Assembly (NCBI GenBank): GCA_949318235.1
Contig: OX439132.1
Coordinates: 43,588,831 to 43,652,830 of the forward strand
Length of the DNA stretch: 64,000 nucleotides
Direction of reading: 5' to 3'
Source: Ecdyonurus torrentis
Lineage: Eukaryota; Arthropoda; Insecta; Ephemeroptera; Heptageniidae
The notes under the pieces are model-generated. The model saw only the letters and a list, made by a program, of their open reading frames with translations, was not told where the DNA came from and did no database searches. This document shows, piece by piece, positions 3,435 to 60,435 of the stretch; the first letter of the stretch is position 1; the number at the start of each line of letters is the position of its first letter. Made by a program: the position numbers and the translations under genes.

Positions 3435-16685
<13,251 letters not shown>

Positions 16686-29883: not shown

Positions 29884-32800
29884 ATGACCGTGACAGAGAA
29901 CACATCTCAACAAGTTGTTCCGGTGGTTGACACACTTTATTCAAAACTTCGCATACTCACGCTCTTCAGTAAATTACTAGGCGTATTTCCTCTTTCTAAT
30001 GCACTAAAAAAAGACGGTAGAAATCTTAAATTTAAATGGACAGACAAGGGACATATATGGGATTGTATGATATGCGCGGCAACCATGTATATTTTTATTC
30101 AAAATTGTTCATATCTGCTAGAGAAAACACATACAGACGAAGATGGAACTATTGTTAAAATATGGCTATTATTAACATGTTACATTGTTTCTGCACGAGC
30201 TGTAGTTCAATTTTCATTAGTTCATATTTATGCGATTCGAATGCCAAGATTGATTACAGAGCTAGAGGAATATCATCAGATAATAGGTGTTTCTATAATT
30301 AAACCTTCTAAACGACGAAAATATGCTAATATTTTGACTATGCTATGGACCATCATTGCTTTGATTGCATTACAGCTAGCTTCGATATCATTCTTCAGTC
30401 AACTTAGTAGTGGAGGAATATTCTACGATACGTGGTCACTCTATATTTCATTCATGTTCGCCAATCTATGGAAAGAATTACCTCTTAGCTTGTTTGCTCT
30501 AATTTGCATATATTTAACTGCTAGGTTTCGTGAGATACGTAATGAGATACGGATTGCTAGACAAGCAGGAACAGAGAAGTTGGGAGAGACGCTCAAGTCA
30601 TTACGATTGAAACATGCTGCTCTGGCGAGAATAATCTCGAGTTTACAACGATGTTACGGCACACAACTTGCAGTGAATCTTCTGTTTCTTCTTCTTGATA
30701 CTGTGATCCAACTTTTTGTCTACTTCTCTCTCACTGCGACTAAGAATGTGTACCTTCTCGTCCTTGCAGCCTACTACTTCATATCGTCTGTCATTTTGTT
30801 TGCTATCGTTGACAGATTGGAAAGAACTGTAAGTAAAAAATCAAATGGGTTTTTATCATGAAATGTGCAATGAAAGTGAAACACAATATCGAATTCTTTA
30901 AAAGACATGAAATAAATCATAACTATAATACTAGAAATACCAAAAAAAAAATTAAAAGTATATATAACAGAACTGAAATGTATAATAAGGGTCCTTTCTG
31001 TAGTTGTCTGAATATCTACATAATAAATTGCCTTTAGATATGAGAAAGCAAAATGATTTAATAGCTTTTAAAAAACACAACTAAAATTTTTCCTATTAAA
31101 TAAGCAGTATTACTCAATTGATGAATATATGAATGATGAAACAATTTAAATACAAATTGTAATTTTATACATAAGTGTCGTTTTTTTGTTTTATTTGTAT
31201 GTTGTAAATAGTTTGACTATCATTTCTATATTGTCATTTATGGCAATAACCTAGACTAATGCAGGGACCGGATTTTCAGTTACAAATGTCTGCTTGCGCC
31301 TGCAAGTTTGGTTTGCTCCTCGTACTGAACAACAATTTACTAAATATTTATAAATTTTGGTTCATTCCAGGTATTCAGGTAGATAGGAAATATTTTACAA
31401 ATTGATAATAAGTTGTGCAGCAGGAAAAGTAACTGCTGTTTTTGCAGGCGCAAGCAGACATTTGCAACTGAAAATCCGGTCCCTAAGCATTGGATTGTAT
31501 TATGTATGTTGGATGAAAGAAATGAATAAAAGAAATTTGAATTTGAAACCATGATTATGCTTGCTTACATGTTAAAAATATTACAGAGGTAGTCTTTATA
31601 TTGCGTGTATTTATATGTATGACTCCTAAGTTAAAAAAAAAGAGCACTGAAAGTAAAATTAATATTTAAATTTACATCAAGAGGCTATACATATCATCCG
31701 CCTAGATTTATAACATGACAATTCTAGTTCTACCATCAGTCAATAGTTTGTTGTGCCAAATATTACTTTTTCCATTAAAATTGTTTTTAACAAAGCTTGG
31801 AAAAAATTCAATTAATAAAAATTGAGCCATATTTATACAATAAAATATAGTATACATATAAGGCTATATATTTGTATGTTATTTTCATTTTGCACGTTTT
31901 TGAAGTAGTGTATCATTAAAGCTTGGCTGTCTATAGGGTGTATGCTCATGACGTCATATTTAGTGCGCTTGGACGCCATACTGGAGTAATGAATAACTTT
32001 GCTCAGCATATGATGAACTTTGTTTTTGGCTATTTTTATTGGGGAATCTGCTATTTTTTTGTTATTATTATTTTTCTCCATTACTAATTTAATCTATTAA
32101 TATCATCAATGCTCTTAAAAATAGTTCTTAGTATATTTATACTGACAAAATGAGTTATTTTCCTATGTGTCCCATGTTATTGAGTAATCCAACATTGCGT
32201 TGACGTTACAATAAACCTCTTGCACATCCTTGCGCTTTGTCGCCATGTTTGTGGTGCCTAATGTATTGTCCAGCATAGGGGAAACATCATTTCTCCTAAT
32301 TTTTCTCTTAAAAAGAGTTTATTTCAACTGAACGAAATTTTCTCATATTCTTCAAGCTTATTAGGAGCTAGAAATAAGACTTTGATGGAGGTTTGAAGCT
32401 TCTTTTGCTATTAAAAAAATGAAACTTACTTTTTTCCTATGCTGGCCTATGTATTCCTGGCCAACAAAATGGCGGCTCTTAAATATGAGTGCAACCGGTC
32501 TATAATAAACTTCATTACAAGCTTCTTTTTTTTTTAATATAAAAGATATACAGCATAATGGCTATGTAGGACAGAATTTGTATATAAATAGCAATTTAAA
32601 TTGTATATTTTGTAAGTAAAGTTAATGAAATGTCATATTATAATTCTACATTTTTCAGGGAGAATTCCTAGCTGACGAGATTGCAGCGTTTGACATTGAT
32701 TCGGAATCCAATAAAGTCGTATTTGGCGAGGTAAGTTCAAAACTCAAATATGTTTTTAGCTTCAATCTGATCTTTATTTTTGGTTACAGATTCAACTCTT

Positions 32801-35699: not shown

Positions 35700-36464
<765 letters not shown>

Positions 36465-39346
36465 ATGGAAGTTGTGGAAAACACAATGTCGACCTCAACT
36501 ACCGCGTTACACACCAAAGAGACTGCTTATAGTACTTTTAAATACTTGGCAACGTTCTGCAAAATATTTGGAGCTTTTCCTTTGTTGAATACTTTGAACA
36601 GCGATGGTAAGAAGTTGCAACATAAGTGGCTGCACAAGATACATCTGTGGGATTGCATGCTGTGTATAGTAATCCTGATGATCTTCATCAAATGTCTTTG
36701 TAATACGTTATCGCAGCTGGAGAATGAAACTATGGAAGACATGCACAAAATTGGTATTGCTATATCTTATTTTATTGGTGGGGTACGAGGAATCGTTCAG
36801 TTTATTTTGTTGCATATTTTTGCACCAAAATTACCAAAATTATTTAAGTCTTTAGAAGAATATCACCAAGAAATCGGAGTTGATATCATTAAGCCAGAGA
36901 GAAACTATTTTTTTAGTCAATTTCTGTCAGTAATCCGTATAATATTGATTTTAATAGTTGGAGAAATATTATCATTCATGTTCATCAGCACTTTATACTC
37001 TCCAGATTACTTTCTCTACGGATGGCCTATCATAACGTTATTTATATTTTCCAACTTATGGCAAGAAATGCCAATGAACATATTTGCCAAATTATGTATG
37101 TATTTGACGAAACGTTTTGCTGAGATACGAGATAATCTTGTAGTTGCACGACATGAGAAAGATACGAAAGATGTTTCTGAGACAGTTGAGATGTTGAGAC
37201 TACAACATGCAGCTCTTGCTTCTATCATCACTCAACTGGAGAAATGTTATGGTGTACAATTGGCAATTAACGTTTTCTTTCTCTTAATGGAGATCGTGGT
37301 TCAATTGTACGTGTTCTTCGTGGTCACGCTGTGCAGCAACGTGATGTTAGTGCTGTTATCGCTCTACTACTTTGTCATGGCCGTCATAATCATTGGAATC
37401 ACGGATAGACTGCAGAGAACAGTACGTAAAGCATTAAAGCCCTTTTCAACTTAATTTTTTATCATTTAGAATACTAGATTGATAATTACCATACCTTATT
37501 AGACCATGAATTAGACTCCACCACGTTGATTTTGTAGTTATTTTCATTTATTTTCTTTTTGACGGTTATCTGACGTCACAATGAACCGCTGCCAATCACA
37601 GTCACCGCTTTGGTCACGTAATTACCCCTATCACGACCCCAGCATTACATTGTGCCGTCAGATGCGTGAAATAACCGCTAAAATAAAAATAAATGAAAAT
37701 AACTACAAAATCAACGTATTGGTGTCTAATTCATGGATAATAAGGTATGGTTATTATCAATCTAGTATTCTAAATGATAAAAAAGTAAGTTGACGGGGGC
37801 TTAAAATCACTTGTAATTAGGACCGCGGTAATATATTTTACCATTGTAAAACTCGCACTTAATTTGCAATCTTATTCTTATAAAAAAAACTCGCTGGATT
37901 TAAATGGTAAATAAAATATACTATCGCGGTCCTGTTAGCTTCGAATGCAGTTTTATTTATCACATATATATTTTCTGAGTTAAATTACCTCCAATTAACG
38001 CAGAAAATATGTATATACATTAAAATTTAATCGATGTTTATTTTTTAGAGTGTTATTATGTAAATTTTAATAGCATGACTTATTTTATTTGGAACTTGCT
38101 CAATTGCTCAGCAAAGAGGAAAATGTTCAATTATTATTGTACAAAAAAAAAAAAAAAAAAAAACGTTAGTTCTATTACTGAAAGAAATATAAATATGCAT
38201 TTGTAATATTTGTACATTAACAAAAAATGTAATACTAAATACTTAATTTCTTCAAGAGTAGTATTTAAAATTATTAAAAACAACGGTGATTTTTGTTTAT
38301 AAATTAAAAATAAATCATATTAATTTGTTTTACAGAACTATGCGATCGCTGAAGAAATTTCAGCATTCAAGCTCCGTTCTTCTTCATCAGATTTAAATCT
38401 TCAGGTAACAGTTATATTATAAGTAACATATGTTATACATTTTTTTTTAAAGTTACGTCATGTTTTTAACGTCATTTTATTGTAATCAATATTTATTTGT
38501 AAACGTCATCTTCTGCTGATGAATTTACTTAAATTTAACAAATATAAAATTTAAAGTGCTTTTCAACTCTGAATTTAAATATATTTTTGTAAATTCAAAT
38601 GATTTATCTATTCAGCAGTGGACTGGAAAAGTTTAATTTAGGCACTAACTATAATAACAATAGAGTAAATATATAAAAAAAAATAAGTAATTTAGTTATT
38701 AATTAGTAGTAATTAATATATTTATGTTACTATGAACTGTCACCGTTTTTCTTCTTTTTTGTATCGTTTAGTTTTTATACATTTTTATTATTAGGCCTGA
38801 AATAGAATAAATCTTAACAAATACCATCTTATAAATTTGTAGATAAACCTTTAAATAATTTTAAATTGCAATTTCAAAGAAATCCAAAATGCTTTTATTT
38901 TTTTATAATAAGAGAAAAATATTCATTGAGTTCTATAACAATTTCAGATCCAGCTGTTTTCCTCGCAGCTCACAGCACGTCCTGTCATATTCTCGGCGTC
39001 GGGATATTTCATCGTGAACAACACTCTCGTCGCGTCGGTACGTTTCAAACTTTGATTAATCATGTGTTTGTCTGACGTTAGTCTTTTGTTGTTTCTCCTA
39101 CCAGACATACACAAGGTCACGAACACATTGATCCAACATTCACTTTTCATCGTGTTAATGACTTTTGCTTTCTGTCAGCGAACTTTCATTGCAATCAATG
39201 TGTATTGTGATTAATAATATTTCATACATGTTTTCTTTCTTTTTATAACTTTAAACATCAATAATGTATATTATTATAAATATATTGTTATGATGATAAA
39301 TGAAACAATGAGTCGTATGACGTATTACAGTTGGTTGTGAAATAAT

Positions 39347-41378: not shown

Positions 41379-44300
41379 ATGGAAGAAGTTGAAATAGTTG
41401 CGACTGAAAAGAGTGAAGAAAAATCTACGGTAAATTCATTTTATAAAATATTACGATATGTAGCTATAACGAGTAAAATTTGTGGTAGTTTTCCTTTAAA
41501 ACACGTTTTAAAGCAAGATGGTCGTGAAATCAAACATAGTTGGGTATCCTCTATCCATTTATGGGATATTTTCTTCTGTATTGTGGTCATCTTATTGTTC
41601 ATGGACAGTTGTGCCGCCATGCAAGCTACATTGGGAGACAGTGAAGAGCAGTCCAGTCTCCTCATATGGCTGACATTGACTTTCTTCATCGTGACCATTC
41701 GCTGTTGTGCACAGTTCATCATCGTGCATTCCTACGCACCGTGTATGCCAGTCCTGCTTACTGCACTCGAGGAATACCATCAAGTTATTGGAACTTCTGT
41801 CATCCAAGCCGACAAGAGACCAAGATTAACACAATTATTCCCACTTTTACGAACTGTAGTAATTCTTATATTACTTACAACGATTTCATTTGTTTTCTTC
41901 GGTCAATTTAATGGAACAGAAATAATGTTTGAATCATGGCCGATTACATTACCATTTTTATTTGCAAATATATGGAAAGAGTTACCAATGAATGTTTTTG
42001 TAATCGTATGTCGATATTTGACACTTCGGTTTAATGAAATAAAAGTAGAGACTCGGAGAGTAAGGGAGAGTGCAGAGAAAGCTAATGCAAGAAAGATTGA
42101 GGAGTTACGACTTCAGTATACGGCTCTCGTGAACATTTTATCACTCGTGGAAGAGTGTTTTGGTATGCAACTGGCGGTCAACTTGTTCTTCCTGTTCATC
42201 GACACTGTTCTCCAGCTCTATGTATACTTTGTCATCACCGCGAGTCAAACTGCAATCTTGCTGCTCCTCGCCTGCTACTACTTCTTCATGGCGGTCATGA
42301 TGCTCATCATCGTACAGAGGATGGAGAGCATGGTTTGTAAAATACATTACAAAACAAACAAACAAATAATATCGTGATACAAAAACAAAAATAATTCAAT
42401 AATTCAATAACAATAATAGTAGATATAGAGGGCCGCACCAGAATGTGTGGAGCAGTGTGGAGCCTTGTGTGGAGCCTGTGTGGAGCTGTGTGGAGCATGT
42501 GGATACTCGCGTACGTACACGAGGTTCAAAAACAAAATGGCGGCCGTTTTGTGTGGAGCTGTGTGGAGCAGAGTGATTCTCGCGTACGTCCACGAGGTAA
42601 TAAACCAAGATGGCGGCGATATGGGCGTGGCAGGTTCGTATTAGCGTACGTACACGAGGTAAAAACCAAGATGGCGTCTGATTATGTACAATAAGTCAAT
42701 ATTTGCATACGTTCACGAGGTTAAAATCCAAGATGGCGTCGATGAGGGTGTGGCAGGTGTGAATTAGCGTACGTACACGAGGTAAAAACCAAGATGGCGT
42801 GTGATTTATGTTGATCAGCTGAATAGTTACGTACGTATACGAGGTCAAAAACAAGATGGCAACTTATTTGTGTGGAGCCTGTGTGGAGCATCTATCACAA
42901 AATTTTAAAATCTTCATACGTGCGTGGGCAGAAAAATAAAAGTGACGTCAGAAAAGAAAGTGCGGTAAAATTTAAATTACATACAGCTTATTGGTTGTAT
43001 AAAATAATTTGAGGGGAAATTTCAAAAATTAAGGAGAAATTCAAAAAGAACCTTTACTCTGATTGGTTCACGGTTTACCCCCACCATTTTTTAATAGCAT
43101 AGCCACATAACAAGTAAAAAACTCAAGGCATACACAAGTCTTTCTCTGCTGCTCCTGCATCTTGATCCTTTTGCTCCACACAAGACTCCACTGAAAAGTC
43201 ATCATGTCTTTCGTAAGTATTAAGTTTTATTTTATTTCTTCTTTTAACTTTAAATTTTGAAATAAGGAATTTTAAAACTTTTATAAAGTAAGCTAACAGT
43301 ATTATGAATTTATTTTTTTCTATAGGTAAAAGAAGCTAAACTCCTCCAGGCTTTGGGCCACGTAGAACCTGCATTATCCTGCAAGACTCTGACTGCTGGA
43401 AAATCATACCTCATCGATAGTATAGAGAAAATCAACTCTAACTACGCAGACGAGCAAGTACTGATTGCAGTATTGAATGCCCTGGACCACTCAAAATTCA
43501 TCCGTGTGTTCCTGCCGTCTAGAATTCCAGCATCAAGGTTTAGTGATGAATTCATTGCGGAATACAACTCATGTCCAGAATGTAAGAAGATGGTTCTCGT
43601 CTACAACGGCATGGTTGGAAGATGCATCGATGTTGAATTTTCCACTAGATCCAGCAAGTAAATATTTTTTGTAATGATGGAAGGATTAAATAAAATCTCA
43701 ACTTGCCTTGAAACCCTTAGTGATTTTTATTGAATACTAAAACCCTTTTCTCTTAGAATATGGCTCTTAAAGTTTATAGTTTGTAAGTTTAAATAAAATA
43801 TTATTGCATCTAATTTATAAATTTAATAAAAAAAAGTTAAAATAAAAAACCATTGAATAAAAACTTAGAATATTTTTCATGAAGTCGCTCTATGTTTAAA
43901 ATGTTTATGAGTTGAAAGGATAATTTTATAAGCAATGAAAACACTTTCAGCTACATGTTCAGACAAAATTTTATTTTAAAAATTTTTACATACGAAATTT
44001 CAAACAAAATTTTTTTACTTGAAGAAACAAAGATAGTGATAAATATACAACTTGATACAGGATTAAAAGTCAATGCCAGTGAATGATGGGGTATAGTTAA
44101 ACATGACACAATATTTGTTCAATTTTCTATGCTTGTCGAGAGGGTTATCCAGCTGGGCCCAGTTGCATACTTGGAGCCCGCAGTAAATGCACTCTGTCAT
44201 CTCAGGAAAATCCTCCGTCGGCTTGTGGAAAAATCCTGCTGCGACTAGATCGTAGATATGAACACTGTCTGCAGGCCAGTCTTTGAAGGTCTCCGCTCTC

Positions 44301-47300
44301 ACATCATGGTTCAGCACATTGATTTTTGACTTATTGTTCAAACACCAATGTGCCAAGCGGTAGGCGTTAGCATGGGGACATACACAGGCTTCGTCACGGT
44401 GCAAGTGATACAGACACTCTGTGCCTACGTTGGTTGGAAGATCTTTTAATTTCACTTGATGCACCTCTAGCAGATCAAATATTGTGGAACGTTTCAACAG
44501 TTTCTTTAACATATCATAGTCTTTTTGACCGTGACAATATAAAGCCTTGTAGGATTCTGTTGCTTTCTTGAGTACTGCACCCACTTGTTCGTAGGCGACA
44601 TCACCAGAGTAGTAAGGATCTTGTATAAATCTCGTGTAATCAAGATATTTATACTCACTGGTAGGGTTTGCAAATCTCCACTGCTGGCTGGCAAACGTAC
44701 TCACGTCGACAACTGCAATTTCTTTGATGACCTCGTTGTGGGTTCCAAAGTACGGCGTTTCCTCACTCGAGAACAAGACTTTAACAACTGCTGAAGCCAT
44801 GGTGGATTTAATGACTCCACACAAAGTTTTGCTCCACACTGACTTATAAAAGATGCACTTTAAATATGTCTGCGGACAATATTGGTGAGAGGAGTGTACT
44901 CGACGACTCTATCGTGGAGAATGAAGGAAATAAAGATATAGAATAGTTTTCAAGTAACACTTACAAAACTTTTCCACAGTTTATCTTTAAGCTATTTTCT
45001 TTAAAAATTATTCTATTTATTTAATAAAGAATTGCTACTCCTATTTTTAACTTGATCAAGTGTTTTGTACTTCAGACTCTAATCTTACGTTGCTCATTTT
45101 ATAGATTAAAAACTTTTGATCAAGAATTTTTGCTTAATAATATATTGCACATTTTAATTCTATGTTGAAATCGCAGTGCATCTAAATACGTTTTATAAAA
45201 ATCTGTTTTCCTATATTGTAAAACATCTTCATTATCCTCTAAGATCATTATTTTAATATTACCAAACGAAACCTTCTTTTTTGTAAATGTGATTTCCTTT
45301 TGAGCGTGAGCTTCCATGTCTAGCCTTCTTGTCTGAGAGATATTCTGATTGTATTTGTAAAATATGCCTCTAGGTTTATTTATATGCATATACAAACAAA
45401 ACTTGGATGCAAAGGACTATGGGAGAAGAGATAAATATATAAAAAAATTAAAGTATGTACAATTCTATCTTTTAAAAATGCTTAATTCGAACACGTTAAA
45501 AAAATATGTAAAATTATTACTCAAGTTCTGAGCTATATTTTCAGATATATTCATACATAAAAAGTTGGCATGCAAAATTATAATCTCAATATAAAGTGTC
45601 TATGTAACTGAAATAAATCAGTTAACATTTTCACCACAAAATATTAAAAATTATATATATCCTTTATTTTCAAAGAACAGCTCATTTACGCTTCAGCAAT
45701 CGTACTATAAAGTTCTGTATACTTTCTCTATGCCAAAGCAACTGAAGATAATATTTGTAAGTACTTAAGTTCATAACAGTGTTCATAAAGACAAATTTTG
45801 ATTCTGTAAAACAGGTGTCAAACGGGTGTAAAGCAGATATTGCAAGGGTATCAAACGGGTGTAGAACGGGTAAAAGACGGGTTTTGAACGGGTATAGAAC
45901 GGGTGTAAAACGGGTACTGAACGGGTATAGAACGGGTAACAAACGGGTATAGAACGGGTGTAAAACGGGTACTGAACGGGTACAGAACGGGTATAGAACG
46001 GGTGTAGAACGGGTGTAAAACGGGTATTGAACGGGTATAGAACGGGTAACAAACGGGTATAGAACGGGTGTAAAACGGGTATTGAACGGGTACAGAACGG
46101 GTATAGAACGGGTGCAGAACGGGTGTAAAACGGGTATTGAACGGGTATAGAACGGGTGTCGAACGGGTAACAAACGGGTTAAGAAAGGGTATCAACGGGT
46201 ATAGAACAGGTATTGAACGGGTATCAAACGGGTATTGAACGGGTGTCGAACGGGTATTGAACAGGAACATTAGGAATTAACATAATTAAGATGAAACGTT
46301 TTACTTCAGAGTCTGATTTGATAATTCAGAATATTATCTCCAGTAAAAAAGCTATACGTAGAAAATATAAAAATATGAGGCTTTCAAGAGGGATTGCTGA
46401 AGACAAAATAAAAAATAACTTGAAAACTGTATCTGAGCCTTTAAAAGAGTTATTGGATCTTGAAGGAAAAAATTTGAAAGCTCATTATCCAGCTACTCAA
46501 CAGTTCAAACAAGAGGTTGGAAACAACATTTCTCCATACATTTCTGCATATATGGGATCTCAAAATAAAGTTTATTTTGATACTGTTTATGGCATGAGAT
46601 ATATAGAAGGGACTTGGTATCTTGGATGAACACCTATTCAGTTTACAGAAAATAGTCTTGTTGTGAATGATGTGACCATACAGGGATCCGTCGGTCTGTT
46701 TGAATTGTTGTTTATGAAGTTACCAAAGAAAGGCCTCTACAGCAAAGAAGATTTAAATGTCTACAGAAATATCATATTGAAAACAAATGCACACAAGCAG
46801 GGATATAAAGAAAATGGTAATCTCAACTTCAACAGAGGATACAAGTACGTGAATATTATCAAGCCGTTGTTTACTTCAACCAAATCAGGTTCTGGCATAG
46901 ACGTATCAAGACCCAAATATTTGGACGACCATAATGAACTTGTGAATAGCCTACGCATACTTCTGACTTCAAAGTCTTCAGACAGCTTCAAACTTTATAA
47001 AGATGTTCTTTTCATTATAGATATCATGCTTAATGTTGGTATATTAGAATGACTTGTTTCTAAATATTTTATACTGCTTGAATACTAAGATCGTCTACAT
47101 TTAAAACAGATTTCATCAGAAATATATAAGTTTTATTTACGAAAGTCTAAATGATTCAAAAGTTGAAACAGTTTCATTGTATATTGTCTTGCGTTTGATA
47201 GTTACCTCAAATGTCGTGTAAATAAGGAATGATGTATTCCAATAATATGCTATATTGCACTCTTTTTACCCTGGTTCTGTATCGCTGAATTATATTGTAT

Positions 47301-50300
47301 ATCAAGTTACATGTTAAAAATAAAATATAAATTTTTGTAAAATCTCTAGTTTTATTTGGAATTTTAAAAAAAACATATAAACATACAAAAATTGAAAGCA
47401 TGGTTCTCATTTGAACAAAGAAAAGCTAAGTCTATAAATTTTTATATTCAAATAAACAATTACATTTTATAAATGAAACATATATTTTATAAAATTTCTA
47501 CTGTTTCTACTAGAAGCAAAAAACGTATATACAAACATGAAATAAAAGCATCAAAACAAATACAAAGTAAACGTAAAATTATATTACTAATTCATATTTA
47601 CAGTACAATATTTCAACATGTATGTCTGCATTCATTTAAACATTCATGTCTACATCCATTTGTACATTCATGTCTACGTGCAATTCACGTACGCTCTTAT
47701 GTCCATATGGCAGTGTATTGATTCCGTCCCCGAGAATTACGCGTTTATCATCATGGAAAGAGAGAGCTACCTTAGTACAATCAAAAGTAAAAACGTTATG
47801 TTTCTTTGACATGATGTTTCTATAGGAGACAAGAGATGATGCTTTCGTATGAAGGCACTTGAGATAGTCAGCTATGGAAATTTTATTCTTGACGGCGTAT
47901 GATTTTACTCCCTTGATTTTCTTCACGTTCTGACCGTCAAATTCAATGAAGTACATTTTAGGACGTAAGCCACAGAACTGACTTATCGGCTTACTATTCG
48001 TCTCGTCCTTGAATTTACATAGAACTTTCATATTCTCAAGAGAGTAACACATATGTGTCTTGGGATAGCCAGAGAAGTCAAAGTGCTGCTTCATTTCCAA
48101 GCAATCCTTGTATATATCAGCTGTTTCTACCATGTATATCCACGCATCAGTATCTCCATACAAAAGCGTCAATTTTTCACCGTACCTTGCCTTCAATACA
48201 TCATAATAAAACTCGTACATGGTTACTTTTGATACATCGAGAATTGCTTGGCCGATGTAAACAGGCTTATTCATCACGATGCTTTCTTTGGCCAAGTGTA
48301 CAGCTACGACATTCTCGGCAAATATAGTTCTGTCTAAGAAGTTACATTTATTGATGAGTTTCTGAAGCAGTGCTTCAGTGGTGACAAGACGTATATTCAT
48401 GCGATTTCTTACTTGCTCCATGGTCTTACCGAATACTGCATTGTTCATTAACTTGAAAAAATCTCTTTCAAACTGATTCAGAGCTGCTTGTCTAAGTTTT
48501 GTGTTAAGATTTATATATGAAGCTAACCAAGCAGATTGTTTGAATTTAATGGCTCTGTGAATGTTAGTTATGACGAGACCGTGAGCGATGGCCTGTTTAA
48601 GAAATCTGTAATGTGCCACATACTTTTCCTTTTTATGCAATGTGCTTACTAGCTTGGGATATTTTGAACCTGCAGGCACAGACTTGTGTGGCAAGAACGG
48701 CAAGTCGGAATGAACGTCATGCAAGTGATCAGGATATGCTACATCAACTTCAAATATGTACCCCTCGTCGGCATCGTCTTTTATATCATTGATTGGCTTT
48801 ATTGAATCTACATCGGTCCATTCAAACCCTCCATAAGGCAGGTGGGTTATCATGGCTCCGCCATATAAATTATTACTGTCTCCGTAAAATATATATTGTG
48901 TTGGTTTACTAGGATCAAAATTTTCCAAGTACGGATTGTTGGCAACGGCGTGACGAGTGACACAAGTGGTGAAGCCACCTCGTATGCCCTCTTCGAACAT
49001 GAGCAACATATCATAATCCTGCAAGAGTTCAAGTGTGACTTTAGTTTTTTTCAATGCAGCATCCCACGCAAGACCTGGAGCTGTGAAGTAATAGCATGGA
49101 TCGAGCTCATAATTTTTCAAACATAAATCGCGAAAGTGTTCAAACACATCAGCAAGGATCAAAACATCAGTTCTAAGATACAAGTCACTATATTCGCCGA
49201 GAGTTTTGATCTCGAATTGATCCCAAACACTCTGAGCATGAAGATAATCTTCATCACTTATTTCTGACTCTGTGATCAAGCTTCTAAACTTTTCTTTAGC
49301 AGGCAGAGAAGTTTCTTTTAACTTATCGAGGGAATCTGTATAGTCATAGCAATAAACGCCCTTGCGAAGTAAGAGCTGCAACTGCTCCTTTGATACGTTG
49401 CTATGTTTAGCTGTTTCCAAGAAAGCATCGCGAGGTAGATTATTAGCCAAAGTGGACAAACCAGACGACATGAATCTGAGACTGTCGAGAAATCTACATT
49501 TTATGTTTCCAATTTTTTTAGTGAAACTTATATACTTCTCCTCGGTGTTTGGGATCACTTCGACATCGCCCGGTACAGCATTCAATTTCTTAACAATGAA
49601 ATGTGAATCGTAATTAGACAGACCATGAAAGAATATGGGCAGTACTCTTGGCTTTCTATTATTCAAGTTACAAATTCTATGACAGGCACCCCTATAAGCC
49701 CCCGTGATGTGATCATGGTCTCTCACTTTGTAATTACAAGAAGTAAAGACATTATTGCACAAGTAACATGCTTTAGCAGCGGCATACGAAGATTTTTCAA
49801 CCTCCGTGAGTGGATTCATAGGATCTTGCTTGGCATAGATCTCTTTTACAATGTTTGCTATCTTTTGTATATATTTTACAAAGTGAGCTCCAATATCATC
49901 ACCTTCACTCATTTTTCTATACGTAAATGGTTCTTTTGGCAGACATTTCTTTTCTGCTTCATTTAAGCCATAAGTTTTAATGTATACACAATAACTCATA
50001 AGTTCATGTACTTGAGTAGAAGTTGTGCTAGATTGATTTGGATTTGGCATACAATTATCAACTTTTTTTAAGAGACTCTCGAAATCTGCATAAAGAACTA
50101 TTGGCAAGCGAAGAGAATGTTCAACGTTTTTAAATTTTATTTCTGAATGCTCTTGATCGGGCATTAAAATTCTAGCAACTTTTCTCTTGTTACATAATTC
50201 TTTATGATTTTTCAAGTTCTCCTCACCATTTTTATCTTTGTAATAAAATCTAAAACATCTTTTGCAAATACATATTCTATGACGTCTCTTACTCAGCTGA

Positions 50301-53300
50301 GATCCTACGAGTTTTTCAAAGTCCGAAATATAGCAGAAGTGAGTTGAACCATATTTATCAGTCAAAAACAATAAATCGCTATGATCTTCTAGTTCCTTCT
50401 CACAAACTTTTAAAGGAAATACTTTATCATTTTCATCTATTCCAAATAAGTTGATGCTAATGTTATTTACTCTTTCAAAAGTAGGAATTTCACTCAGCTT
50501 AGTAGGAGCATTTATACACGTAAAATTATATTTGTTTGATAATTTAGAATAATCGTAGCTCTCTGGACGTGATTCTGTGGCTAATTTTGCTAACACTGAA
50601 TACTTGAAGCAATGTGAGTCATTGTTTTGAATATTTACAACTGCATTACGTCTGCGCAAACTTTCAGGCAAAGAAATGTAACCGTTACCTCTAAGGGGAT
50701 TGAATTTATTTAAACGAATTTCTATGCCTTGCACTTTTGAAACAGTCCAACCACTGCCTTTTGCTTGGAACTCACTTAATTCACGCTGCAACTTATCATA
50801 TGTTCTAGCAACATAGTCATTTAAATCACTTTCTCTATAAATTGCAACGTTCATTGTTTTGAAGTTCTTTTCTTGAGTTTCACCACGTAAGTTTTCATGC
50901 TCTACTTCAAACCTCACATTAACTTTCAAACACTGCTTGTTAAGCAATCCTTTCTGTATGATATTCTTTATCGCATCTGACTTTAAATATAAATACTTTA
51001 AAGGATCGTGTTCTCCACTTCTATTTTCAATTTTATATGTGCAAATTCTACTTTGAAATGCTGATTCTAAACTCAATATTTCTCTTGTGTCTAACAGCTT
51101 TTGGAACTCAACATTCACGTCACTTGAATTATTTTTATCACTGGCTTGTAAAGCAACATCTTCTAGAGTCCCTTCTGGCTCCCCCTGGTTACTGACAGCA
51201 TCGGTGTTTTCCTTATTTTGAGATTGTGAAGCTTTTGTACTTGCAGTTGTGGCTGCTACTCCCATCGTCTCCTGACTTACTTGTGGAAATTGGTCGTTTT
51301 GAGTCTCTGCATCATCAATAATACTTTCAGCTTCGGTGGAGGTTGTAGCTACAGGCTCAGCATTTTCGTTAGTTGAACTATTGGCAGTATTAACGTTAAA
51401 AGTTGCTTCTCTAAACGTATTTCTTCCACCTTGTAATTTACAATACTTTGCTGTATGTCTTCTGAGTGCATCAGTTCTACTAAACGTTGCATGACAATTT
51501 TTACATGCTATTTTTTTCGTCTCTGCAGCCTCTGCTTCAGCAATATCATTCTCCTCTCTTCTCACTCTTTTAGCTTGTGTTTCACTGTGATGCTTGCAGC
51601 TAGTAGTTTGATGTCTCTTTCTGTTTCGTAAGTTAGAGAAAAACTCACCACAATGCTCACAGGGAAAAATACTTTTTCCATGCTTGTAGAAACTATGGAG
51701 TTGAACGTCCTTTTTTTCTTTAAAAAATTGTTCGCAGTGATCACACTTGATGCTGGGAGCAACTTGCTTACTGTTCGACATTGTCGAGGCTTCAGATGAA
51801 ACAGAATAAAAGATGAGTCAATATTTCACTACGAAAGTGGAGAGACTATGCTAACTGCACCGCAGCTCAAACACATCTAACGGCCTTTCTTTAATGTTTA
51901 ATGTTATATTCTCGAAATTAAAGGAGTGGGAGGGGGGGGAAGCTTCTGGCGCTTTTTTTTAAATACTATGTATACGTTTTTATTTTCAACTTTACTGGCT
52001 TCTTTAAAATTAAAATTTTAGCAAAATAATCCTTCCGAAATATTAAAAAAAAATTATTTATTTTTATTTTTCTTACTTATAAAGATGTAAGTATTAACGA
52101 AAGGAAATTTATATGTTATAACATAATATTATTTAAAAAGTATATACATTTGCTTGTCTTTATTTAATCTTGTAAATTTATTGCAAGTTTTAATTTATTG
52201 TTTCATTTTTTCCTTCTTTTTATTTCCACTCAAAACTATTTTTTTTCTAGACTTTTAAGAAATAAAATTTATTCATCATTATAGTATATGAAGAGTTTAA
52301 AAAATTCTAGATTTACTTATAATTTTTTTAAATGTACAACTTTTATTATTATAATTTTTTTCAGAGTTATGATTAACATTTTTAACTTCCACGCAAAAAG
52401 AGAACCATGCATGCATTTTTATGTTTCTTTTTATAAAATTGTATACGGCTTTATATAGCACAAACTTAAACAAGTGTAATTTTATTTTACCACGCATGCG
52501 CGGTATAGAAAACTTGTTTGAAAAAAATATGCAAGTTTCTTTTATTTTTCTCAAGTTCTATCTTATAATCTTGCTTCAACTTTTCTCTTTCATACTTAGA
52601 GTTATAAAATATTTCCAACAGTTTTTATTTTTATTTTTACTCTTTAAGAATTTTTCTAAGTCTTGAAGAAAATTTATATTCAAAGTTTTATAAATGTAAC
52701 TCAGAATGTAAAAGATTTTTATTTTACTTCTATTACTCTCAGTTAGAAAAATTATTTTACATAAAATTATATAAATTTGTGCTCATGATAAAATTTTAAT
52801 TTTTTTCTTGAAGTAATATTTTTTAATATATATGAAATGTAAAGTAGAATATATGTTTCTTATTTTACTTAAATTATTTTAACTAGAAAAAATTATACAT
52901 TTACAAAGATAATAAATATAGAAGTAATTTATAGTTTTTGTTCGTTGAAAAATATTTTACAATTTTAAATTTGAAAATATCTAAATCATACTCACTCGAG
53001 AGTCGAACTCGTGTCACCTCAGGAGCACCTCAATTGGGAGAACCTTGATCATCCGCTGCCGCCCTCTTTCTGAACCAGCGGTACATTGCCATCCTGCCCA
53101 TACCTCTGCAGTGAGGGGTACATATGGCAAGGGGTGGGTGGGGCAATTTTTATAAACAGAATATTCTGGTAGGCATCAGTCATACCTACCACCCGATATA
53201 TTTTTTTTTACCGTCCGATACACCTTTGATTAGTTATTGGCTCTCAAAGTTCGACAAAATTGAAGCTGGGTGCCAGGAGATCATAACGTCGAAGAAGTAG

Positions 53301-55273
53301 TAGTCTGTAACAGTGTGGGCGGGTCCCTGCACGTGTGATATGTTTATCTTCTCTCACGAAGGAATGTTTATAATAACTTGTTCATATTTCAAAGATAAAA
53401 TATAAACAGAGGAATGTATATGCAAACAAGAAGAAACATGTGCAAACAAGACGAAAAATATTTATAAAATAAATAATTTATTAAAATTATTTTACAAATT
53501 CGATTTTAGGGGTTTGACATATTTCACAGAAAATCTAAAACCGGATGTTGATAGAGCCTTGAAAATAATCCGGGGATTTTGTAAAAAAAATTGGGCCACT
53601 CCCAAAACTACACTGAAAAAAATTAATTTTTATAGAAATAAGCAAGTTATAAAAAATCTGTCTGATGTACCTTATAGACAAGTCAATCAATGTCACAAAA
53701 CGATCAAAAAAGTACACTGTCAAAACGACACTGAAAAAAAAAATTATTTGGTAATATGCTAAAATTCAAATTTTTTTTCAAATTTTTTCAAGTGCATGTA
53801 CACATAGTGACTTAGGCCATACAGTGCTTCGCACAATGAGCCGCCATTTTGTTTTTTAATGTACTTAACCCCGTGTACGTGCGCTACCAATCAACTATTT
53901 GATACAAGTCTGTCGCCATCTTGTTTGTAACCTTGTACTCGTACGTAATTTTTCATTTGTTTGTCACAAATCGGACGCCATCTTGGTTTTTACCTCGTGT
54001 ACGTACGCTAATACGAACCTGCCACGCCCATATCGCCGCCATCTTGGTTTATTACCTCGTGGACGTACGCGAGAATCAGTCTGCTCCACACAGCTCCACA
54101 CAAAATTGCCGCCATTTTGTTTTTGAACCTCGTGTACGTACGCGAGTATCCACATGCTCCACACAGCTCCACACAGCTCCACACAGGCTCCACACTGCTC
54201 CACACATTCTGGTGCGGCCCTCTATATCTACTAATAATTCATAAATTATTTGAATGAGTAGTAATATTCAACCAACACATTACGTAAAAAATACAATACT
54301 GAAAATCAGAGATATATTTTTTTAAATATTAGTAATGCCATACTATGGTAATCGGGCAGATTGGAACGTTCTTTCTTATTATTTTTTCAGCGTACTTTAC
54401 TCGTAGATTGCATGAAAAAAAAATAATAAAAGTACCAATTAACATACATTTCATCAAAATATGTTCTTTATATTTAAGTGCTTAAGAGATCATATTGAAG
54501 TGCATTCAAAATAATTACATAAATTACATTTTTGACGTATTATGTATAATCCTTGTTACAGGGTCCAAACATTATGCGAGAGGTGACTGCATTCGAGTTA
54601 TGTACTGCTAATCACGATCAGCAAGCACAGGTACTACATAATTTTATATTCCACGAATTACAAAGTATAAATATAATGAGTAAAGTTTCAGACACTTCAA
54701 ATAATTCCTTTCGTATAATTGTAATATTTTCAACCAAAAAAATGTTACTAATGTGATTTCTAAAAGAATTATATTTTTATTTTATTTTGTGTTCTGATTA
54801 TACGATGTTTCCGCAGATTCAGTTGTTCACCATGCAGCTGTCTTTACAACCTATCAAGCTGTCTGCTTCTGGTTTCTTTATCATCAATAATGGATTGATA
54901 TGCTCGGTAAATAATCAATAATATCATTAAATTGTATCTGCAATCTAAAAAAATTAAATACTTAATTAATAATAATAAAACGAAACAATTTTGGCACAGT
55001 GTGCATTGTGTATAGCTAAAAGAAAACAGAAAAAAGGAGTCCATTCAATAAAACAATACTTCTACTATATTCCATACACTATATAACCCTGTATATCCTT
55101 GTTAATTTATTTACTAAATTTATTGAATTTCAATTCTATTTGTGTTCTAATATTTATATTTTAGTCTCCGATATGTCTTCGTGTTACTTTTTTATTATGG
55201 TTATAAAGTAATGATAAAATTTGAGTCAGAAAAAGTCAATTACATCATTGCGTGTAATATACAGTGTTTTATA

Positions 55274-59013: not shown

Positions 59014-60435
59014 ATGACTGCTATGGAGTGCAGATCAACCAAACATGTTGAAACTTTCTACTCAAAAGTTCGATTTCTAGCCGTAATAAGTAAAATCTGG
59101 TCTTCGTTTCCTTTAGGATATACATTGAAGAAAGATGGTCGAAAATTAAGCCATAGTTTTTTCTCATTAATTTACGTGTACGATGTAATTAGTGTTTGTA
59201 CTTACATGGCTTGGTTTATTTATGAATGTGTGAATTTAATTGATCCAGCTACTAGTGAAATTGAAATTACTTTAGTAATCTGGCTTACACTTACCTGTTT
59301 CCAAGTTGCTTTTCGTGGATCTATTCAGTTTTTTGTCGTCCATGCATTTGCAAGTAGATTACCGGCATTGTTTTCTGCTCTAGAAGAATATTGTCAGGAA
59401 ACTGGAGTCAATATAATTAAATTTAAAACAAGAAAAAATTGCTGTAGTAGATGTATCAACCAAATTTTATCAATTATTTGGACCATTATAATTTTATCTT
59501 TAATCCAATCAATATCTCTATTTTTCTTTCAACAACTTGACCCTTCAATCACGATACAGACAGCATTACCTGTAGCAACATCTTATATGCTGGCTAATAT
59601 ATGGAAAGAACTACCTATGATAATGTTTGCGAAAATTACAATTCAGATTACAAAACGTTTCTCAGAAGTAAAAGATGAATTGAAACGTATTAGAGAGAAC
59701 AATAATAAGGCAGAGAATTGGACACAAGATTTAGAACGTCTAAGACTGCAGCATGGAGCACTCTCACGTATCGTGACACTTCTGCAGTTTTGCTATGGAA
59801 CACAACTTGTTGTGAACATCATGTTCCTGGTCGTGGAAATTGTGCTTCAACTTTTCGTCTTTTTCATCGTCACGAAGAGCGAGAATATTGCACTTCTTGG
59901 ACTTGCCTTCTATTATCTACTTATGGGGCTAATATTGCTATCCATAGTTGAACGAATGGAACGTACGGTACGTTAAAACAAAATTAGTTAGTACTCAGAA
60001 TAATAATAATTAGCAATAAAACTGAATAATAATAAATATATAACACAACCAATAATGATGGTCATTAATATAACTTGTTTTGCAGCTTAAAAATTTACTC
60101 ATAAATTTTTATTGACATATATAGAAAAAAGTTTCTGATTATGACGTGATTTTCAAAAATTAATTAAAAAAACTTAATGAAACTCAAAAATTAGAAATTC
60201 ACATATCTATCGCTTCAGGACATCGGCTTCTTTCAGAATATAGAAAATTACCCTCCTTTTTTTAGTGCTACTCATTAAGGATGTTTTCAATAGTTTTCAA
60301 ATATGATAGTTTTCAAATATGATAGTTTACAATTATTCGAGAAATAAATTGTTTTCTCTTAATCAACTGATAAAATCGTTGTTATGTACTTCATATTCAA
60401 TCATTTACTCATCATGTATACTATGAATTCATTTG

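Follow-up and report, generated by a model that had tools for sequence, protein, structure and literature searches.

A Polinton Without Capsid and Integrase Genes Beside Complete-Type Relatives in the Genome of Ecdyonurus torrentis

We have analyzed a stretch of 64,000 nucleotides from the mayfly Ecdyonurus torrentis (contig OX439132.1, C11 in our numbering, positions 43588831–43652830), which we call the window, and we have searched the whole host genome (503 Mb, 117 contigs), whose loci are given L-numbers. The window contains a Polinton of 11.8 kb (42418–54232) which has neither capsid nor integrase genes. This type of Polinton has spread in the genome beside complete-type relatives, and both types carry a protein in which a Maelstrom-like domain is fused to a BIR domain. 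We consider this a stronger finding than the one put forward in a preliminary description of the same DNA, where the element was seen as the carrier of two suppressors of host defence, acting on apoptosis and on the shutoff of translation. The element is probably a non-autonomous, satellite-like Polinton.

The window element and its relatives

Polintons, also called Mavericks, have a characteristic signature: AG...CT ends, long terminal inverted repeats (TIRs) and a 6-bp target site duplication. All these features are found in the window element. It starts with AGTAGATATAGAGGG and finishes with CCCTCTATATCTACT (complement), and the two copies of its AATAAT duplication lie at 42412–42417 and 54233–54238. 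Ends and duplication had both been pointed out before, they are read directly at the borders and the identification as a Polinton is supported. The left TIR has its core at 42418–42683 (plus strand), with a repeat array that runs on to 42889, the right TIR is at 53969–54232 (minus strand). A comparison of both arms gives 260 identities, 4 mismatches and 2 gaps (98%), so the element was probably inserted fairly recently.

Polintons also have a polymerase B, and the element contains a candidate for it. The corresponding open reading frame (ORF) has 1381 amino acids (47636–51781, minus strand) and no internal stops: The frame is intact, in agreement with the preliminary description. It contains, in this order, the motifs YADFES, NYDSH, YSDLYLRTD, DSNNLYG, NNAVFGK and YGDTDA, which we take to be the exo and polymerase motifs of a B-family polymerase, and it reaches no polymerase family in Pfam. 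Over its full length it is 92–94% identical to the polymerases of loci L041 and L042.

Other Polinton genes are missing. Four proteins of L033, a complete-type copy, were compared with the window element by tblastn (capsid, ATPase, phospholipase-like protein and integrase), and the only trace found was a capsid scar of 21 residues (44863–44925, minus strand). It corresponds to the C-terminal residues 388–408 of the major capsid protein gene and is 90% identical to L033 (E 1.2e-7). A Pfam scan of 10 of the 39 remaining ORFs with at least 45 codons in the element gave no Polinton gene. The element itself has none of three further Polinton/Maverick features (RVE integrase, capsid and packaging ATPase) and, as it lacks an RVE integrase, it is filed as a non-autonomous derivative. 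Its length is also below the 15–20 kb stated for Polintons in PMC4028283.

In the place of the missing genes there is a cassette with three components: the gene for an 89-residue protein with KVSF and RFQHRI motifs (45120–45389, minus strand), an 11-bp minisatellite with 38 copies of the unit GGGTATAGAAC (45846–46262) and gene X' (46291–47052, plus strand), which shares about 50% identity with gene X from the complete-type copies. The KVSF protein and X' distinguish this type from other Polintons. Minus-strand frames across the minisatellite stay open over long stretches.

Using the BIR protein as query, we have detected 36 near full-length places in the host genome (83–100% identity). Matches at E values up to 1 total 70, and the 24 with values above 1e-3 are confined to the region of the BIR domain. 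Thirty of these places were taken as loci, so that all copy counts are seeded by BIR. A KVSF gene is present in 7 of the 30. Among the other 23, the nine represented by 9.9-kb pieces (L032–L040) all have a full gene set between BIR and polymerase: capsid, a 228-residue protein, a phospholipase-A2-like protein, packaging ATPase, gene X, a 156-residue protein and RVE integrase. We call these copies complete-type, a label to be read with the fact that right ends were obtained only in part (L055, L057). In L033, Pfam identifies the double jelly-roll (DJR) capsid (1.1e-99), the phospholipase-A2-like protein (6.4e-12), the A32/FtsK-type ATPase (8e-8) and the RVE integrase (8e-14); the 228-residue protein, gene X and the 156-residue protein have no Pfam match. 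Capsid, ATPase and integrase are thus Polinton features found in the relatives from the same genome. We have identified a protease in no copy. The distant family represented by L043 has the gene order of the complete type, with a BIR relative at 41% identity.

Parvovirus capsids also encode a phospholipase-A2-like domain; the one in complete-type Polintons of this genome matches PF08398 (6.4e-12, L033:4919–5701).

The left flank of the window element is 98.1–98.7% identical to L032–L036, 97.6–97.8% to L041 and L042, which are of the window type, and 86–87% to L037 and L039, complete-type copies from another subfamily. The corresponding values for the polymerase end are 93–98%, 94–95% and 86–88%. 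The cassette is 96–98% identical to those of L041 and L042, and it is absent or only 66–67% identical in the seven complete-type copies compared. The two types thus seem to have exchanged their flanks, and it is the cassette that sets them apart. Judging from these sequences, the window type is a derivative of the complete type which has kept a capsid scar and whose gap is filled by the cassette.

The 6-bp flanks of the window type match at six of six examined sites (AATAAT, AATAAA, TATATA, AATACT, TATATA and TATAAT), a reading that omits the rearranged place L011. The complete-type L033 is flanked by CATTTG, and in L038 the terminus was not found with the end pattern of the window element. 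The BIR and KVSF genes of L002 are identical to those of the window, at a different genomic site. Since the same structure is present at six sites with matching flanks, the shortened form itself has moved. As this dispersed form has no integrase gene, we infer that its integration takes place in trans. The element would replicate with its own protein-primed polymerase, while proteins from complete copies would integrate it, and perhaps package it.

A complete Polinton might instead have decayed by internal deletion, the KVSF ORF and the minisatellite being functionless filler. Several observations favour such a decay. The capsid scar would be expected, and X' is broken in the window copy by an in-frame TGA (46627–46629). 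The KVSF ORF has a non-coding-like composition and its constraint is not significant (6 synonymous and 17 non-synonymous changes, p = 0.23); one of the six other KVSF copies has a stop and a 12-nt gap. Nevertheless, the structure recurs at the six sites with matching flanks, the cassette is conserved in L041 and L042, the polymerase is open in both and X' is open in L041, where it codes for 253 amino acids. Relatives of KVSF are also found elsewhere, two of them adjoining polymerase-like and ATPase genes. We therefore regard simple decay as quite improbable and prefer a satellite-like element.

Other elements also have a protein-primed polymerase (pPolB) without a capsid module of their own, such as transpovirons and linear plasmids. 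The window element, with its putative pPolB, resembles them in this respect. On the other hand, it is integrated in an animal genome, has Polinton TIRs and is accompanied by complete-type relatives whose flanks are nearly the same. Elements with pPolB are treated in PMC11071308.

The terminal regions of the element (42418–42889 and 53842–54232) are rich in short repeats. They contain 10 of the 11 AARATGGCG sites in the window (0.74 expected), five per arm, in arrays of about 62 bp beside GTACGTACACGAGG; this motif is presumably YY1/Pho-like. All 12 window sites of GTACGTACACGAGG, with up to two mismatches, are in these regions, and so are 16 of the 18 exact sites of GTGTGGAGC, a repeat unit of the TIR ends. 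The other two GTGTGGAGC sites are found 23 bp 5' of a small, probably spliced gene, SM (site at 43173–43181), and 31 bp 5' of the start codon of the BIR gene (44831–44839, minus strand). The latter site has an identical position in L033, L037 and L039, and is missing in the distant L043. It is present in at least 11 of the 30 loci, a lower bound, as our script recognizes only three N-terminal prefixes. Its constant place across copies ties the BIR gene to the repeats of the element, and GTGTGGAGC might possibly be a control site shared by SM and BIR. SM is a probable gene of 114 amino acids (43204–43661, plus strand; exon 1 43204–43212, intron 43213–43325, exon 2 43326–43661). Its exon-2 protein is present in all 30 BIR loci, with a loose splice-like signature in 22 of them.

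The presence of several groups of near-identical copies suggests recent bursts. One subfamily, formed by L026–L031 and five further places (91–92%), has one TAA in the query range; the 245-codon frame of L026–L031 has no stop, so this TAA sits upstream of the start. L011 (C20:7697583–7708939) has a nested or duplicated layout, with several partial BIR and SM copies. L065 and L066 (C8:2446891–2453049) are part of an element which is degenerate and rearranged. Its KVSF is 72% identical and its integrase fragments 47–72%, and it is perhaps an older form with both gene sets.

A BIR protein with a Maelstrom-like domain

The BIR protein has 245 amino acids (44063–44800, minus strand). Its BIR domain starts at about residue 168 and matches PF00653 with an E value of 1.3e-15 (58.1 bits, cut-off 22.9) at residues 181–247 of a 258-residue reading. 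The zinc pattern is complete (C204-x2-C207-x16-H224-x6-C231), with strict CCHC spacing in the window protein and in 15 of 16 database homologues. The BIR domain proposed in the preliminary description is thus confirmed. The gene has a ratio of non-synonymous to synonymous polymorphism (pN/pS) of 0.13 among the genomic copies: It is under purifying selection.

Residues 1–165 are modelled as a DnaQ-like fold by structure prediction, and all 16 homologues have the same architecture, with this domain followed by BIR. A tetrad formed by E27, C129, H132 and C141 (ECHC) is invariant in the 17 proteins, its members being predicted zinc ligands. ECHC has been reported for Maelstrom and for arenaviral ExoN, according to PMC7968707. 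The window domain and the MAEL domain of Maelstrom share the DnaQ-like fold, the ECHC tetrad, an identical C-x2-H-x8-C spacing and a catalytic DEDD which is not conserved. They differ in that the window domain has about 165 residues and is fused to BIR, with no HMG in the 245 residues. Searches against Pfam and PDB gave no significant sequence match to MAEL proteins; the host Maelstrom was not searched. Five of the 17 family members touch PF05370 (DUF749), with a best value of 0.0069, which we have taken as noise.

It could be argued that this domain has no relation to Maelstrom and is a DEDDh nuclease, either working or degenerate, involved, for example, in DNA end processing during replication. 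In fact, the best structural matches of the model are ISG20L2, DinG, ExoX and DnaQ, and the top Foldseek match is QIP. However, position 7, probably that of the first catalytic Asp, is D in only 10 of the 17 proteins and K in the window, with no E two residues on, and it is the ECHC ligands of Maelstrom and ExoN that are invariant. As far as the sequence goes, the domain is one without a conserved catalytic site, and a DEDDh nuclease seems doubtful to us. A Maelstrom-like half could bind RNA without cutting it, and the BIR protein as a whole could delay cell death.

Viral inhibitors of apoptosis (IAPs) from baculoviruses, nudiviruses and entomopoxviruses also have BIR domains, and they provide fold matches in BFVD. 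The window protein differs from them in having a single BIR, placed C-terminal to a DnaQ-like domain, and no RING according to Pfam. An uncharacterized 166-residue protein of Drosophila-associated adintovirus 2 has a predicted structure that can be matched to the BIR-protein model, in part or as a whole (TMt 0.62, 19% identity). Adintovirus 1 is reported to have genes for polymerase, integrase, capsid, protease and FtsK, and adintovirus 2 nearly the same set (PMC8363768). On the other hand, neither apoptosis nor IAP is mentioned by name in the main text of PMC8363768. Queries with BIR, polymerase, X2 and KVSF gave no relatives in viral contigs, and none were found in prokaryote contigs. We have found no report of a Maelstrom-like/BIR fusion, or of BIR genes in Polintons, in open-access titles and the start of abstracts; Polinton, inhibitor of apoptosis and BIR are all named in a clam genome paper and in a fungal transposon paper, whose contents were not assessed.

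The KVSF protein and PPP1R15

The preliminary description had proposed that the KVSF protein is of the PPP1R15 type. The ORF exists as it was described, and it includes an RVxF docking motif for PP1, KKVSF, which is the same in seven of seven copies. The landmarks of PPP1R15B are K640-V-T-F, R658, W662, F672 and I676 (PMC4394352). The window protein shares with PPP1R15 (GADD34/CReP) a KVxF followed by R-x3-aromatic-x9-F-x2-R-I, with the PPP1R15B spacing from the Arg on. It differs in having Phe instead of the conserved Trp, and three extra residues between KVxF and Arg. In PPP1R15A, F592 and R595 make contact with actin, as given in PMC8500838; the window protein lacks the C-terminal actin-contact extension (human Arg612).

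The core pattern, with Trp relaxed to any aromatic, is found in the window protein and in human PPP1R15A and PPP1R15B. Of the 555 ORFs in the window only one has it, and none of 200000 shuffles, although it was chosen after two of its parts had already been flagged. The arm R-x3-aromatic-x9-F-x2-R-[IVL] alone appears in 80 of 200000 shuffles. Other comparisons of the window protein are less favourable. A profile of the two human sequences places it third among the 555 ORFs (E 1.1), and 18 of 5000 shuffles are as good. In Smith-Waterman alignments, 707 of 5000 shuffles are as good with human PPP1R15A, and 31 of 5000 with PPP1R15B, where the register is wrong. No relevant match was obtained in Pfam, PHROGs, NCBIfam, PDB or the protein database.

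A search of the genome gave 13 KVSF matches: seven near-identical copies, including the window, two in the degenerate element mentioned above and four distant relatives (32–36%). The sequence of L067 and L068 is RKSNWHSIRADEIRFKDRI and includes the Trp. With the human profile, L068, L070 and L067 outscore all 555 background ORFs (E 0.001–0.0027). When a profile is made from the window protein and these three relatives, the two best of 10,002 targets are human PPP1R15B with 12.7 bits and, in second place, PPP1R15A with 12.6 bits. Their domain E values are about 0.1, and no shuffle of 5000 is as good in either case. L067 and L068 also match PF10488 (0.0087 and 0.049), both under the cut-off: The score of L067 is 16.2 bits, with a gathering score of 26.1. 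L070 and the window protein have no PF10488 match. Given the rank of the relatives and these sub-threshold matches, a PPP1R15-like origin is likely. As the gathering score is not reached, we call the protein PPP1R15-like and do not file it as a family member. Of the earlier proposal, the link to PPP1R15 stands through the relatives, while the window protein itself fails in Pfam.

In L067, the KVSF-like gene lies between an ORF which, by its motifs, we take to be polymerase-like, and an A32-type ATPase, which is 25% identical to that of L033 (E 4.7e-7). The DNA of L068 is 95% identical to L067, and its ATPase has an E value of 0.005. With such neighbours, these loci apparently represent another Polinton lineage, which argues against KVSF being a chance insertion. 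The ORF next to L070 looks like an IS1595-type transposase. A chance origin of the ORF was rejected: When the local sequence was simulated, frames of 89 codons or more came up in 0.7%.

The KVSF protein may recruit PP1 to phosphorylated eIF2-alpha, and translation would reopen. BIR and KVSF could have been acquired together from a virus, as a cargo pair against apoptosis and translation shutoff. The BIR domain is clear and the link to PPP1R15 is provided by L067, L068 and L070. Both proposed suppressors are real proteins. However, they do not form a fixed pair. BIR belongs to the left end common to complete-type copies and is found in 30 of 30 loci, by construction, because it was the search query. 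KVSF belongs to the cassette, and is missing in 23 of the 30. In addition, the KVSF-like gene in L067 and L068 has no detected BIR neighbour within loci of 3.2 kb. A joint acquisition is therefore unlikely, but joint action of both proteins within the window type is possible.

Genomic site and significance

The element had been placed in the intron of a receptor gene, and this location agrees with its surroundings. The ORF at 41379–42377 (plus strand) contains the first exon of a chemoreceptor gene (PF08395, 7tm_7, E 9.7e-10), and a candidate C-terminal exon (TYIVMLVQF) is found at 57549 on the same strand. We infer that this exon belongs to the receptor gene, with the element inside its intron. 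Four similar first-exon ORFs are found in tandem on the plus strand (29884–30861, 36453–37454, 41379–42377 and 59014–59976); the 7tm_7 match was checked for the third one only. There is also a tRNA gene at 6730–6810, on the minus strand.

More generally, animal genomes may host satellite Polintons, which would have lost capsid and integrase, retain a polymerase of their own and ride on complete Polintons. They would have their own host-manipulating kit, including a Maelstrom-like pseudo-exonuclease/BIR protein which possibly hits piRNA or RNA silencing and apoptosis together. We offer this wider picture tentatively, as a possibility rather than as a probable account. A satellite-like Polinton beside its likely helpers, in a single chromosome-scale genome, makes the trans-mobilization of virus-like transposons directly testable. 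The Maelstrom-like/BIR fusion is conserved in 17 proteins, and its genomic copies are under purifying selection; among viral proteins this architecture would be new. Finally, if two Polinton lineages have PPP1R15-like genes, the mimicry of eIF2-alpha phosphatase would include Polintons in addition to large DNA viruses.
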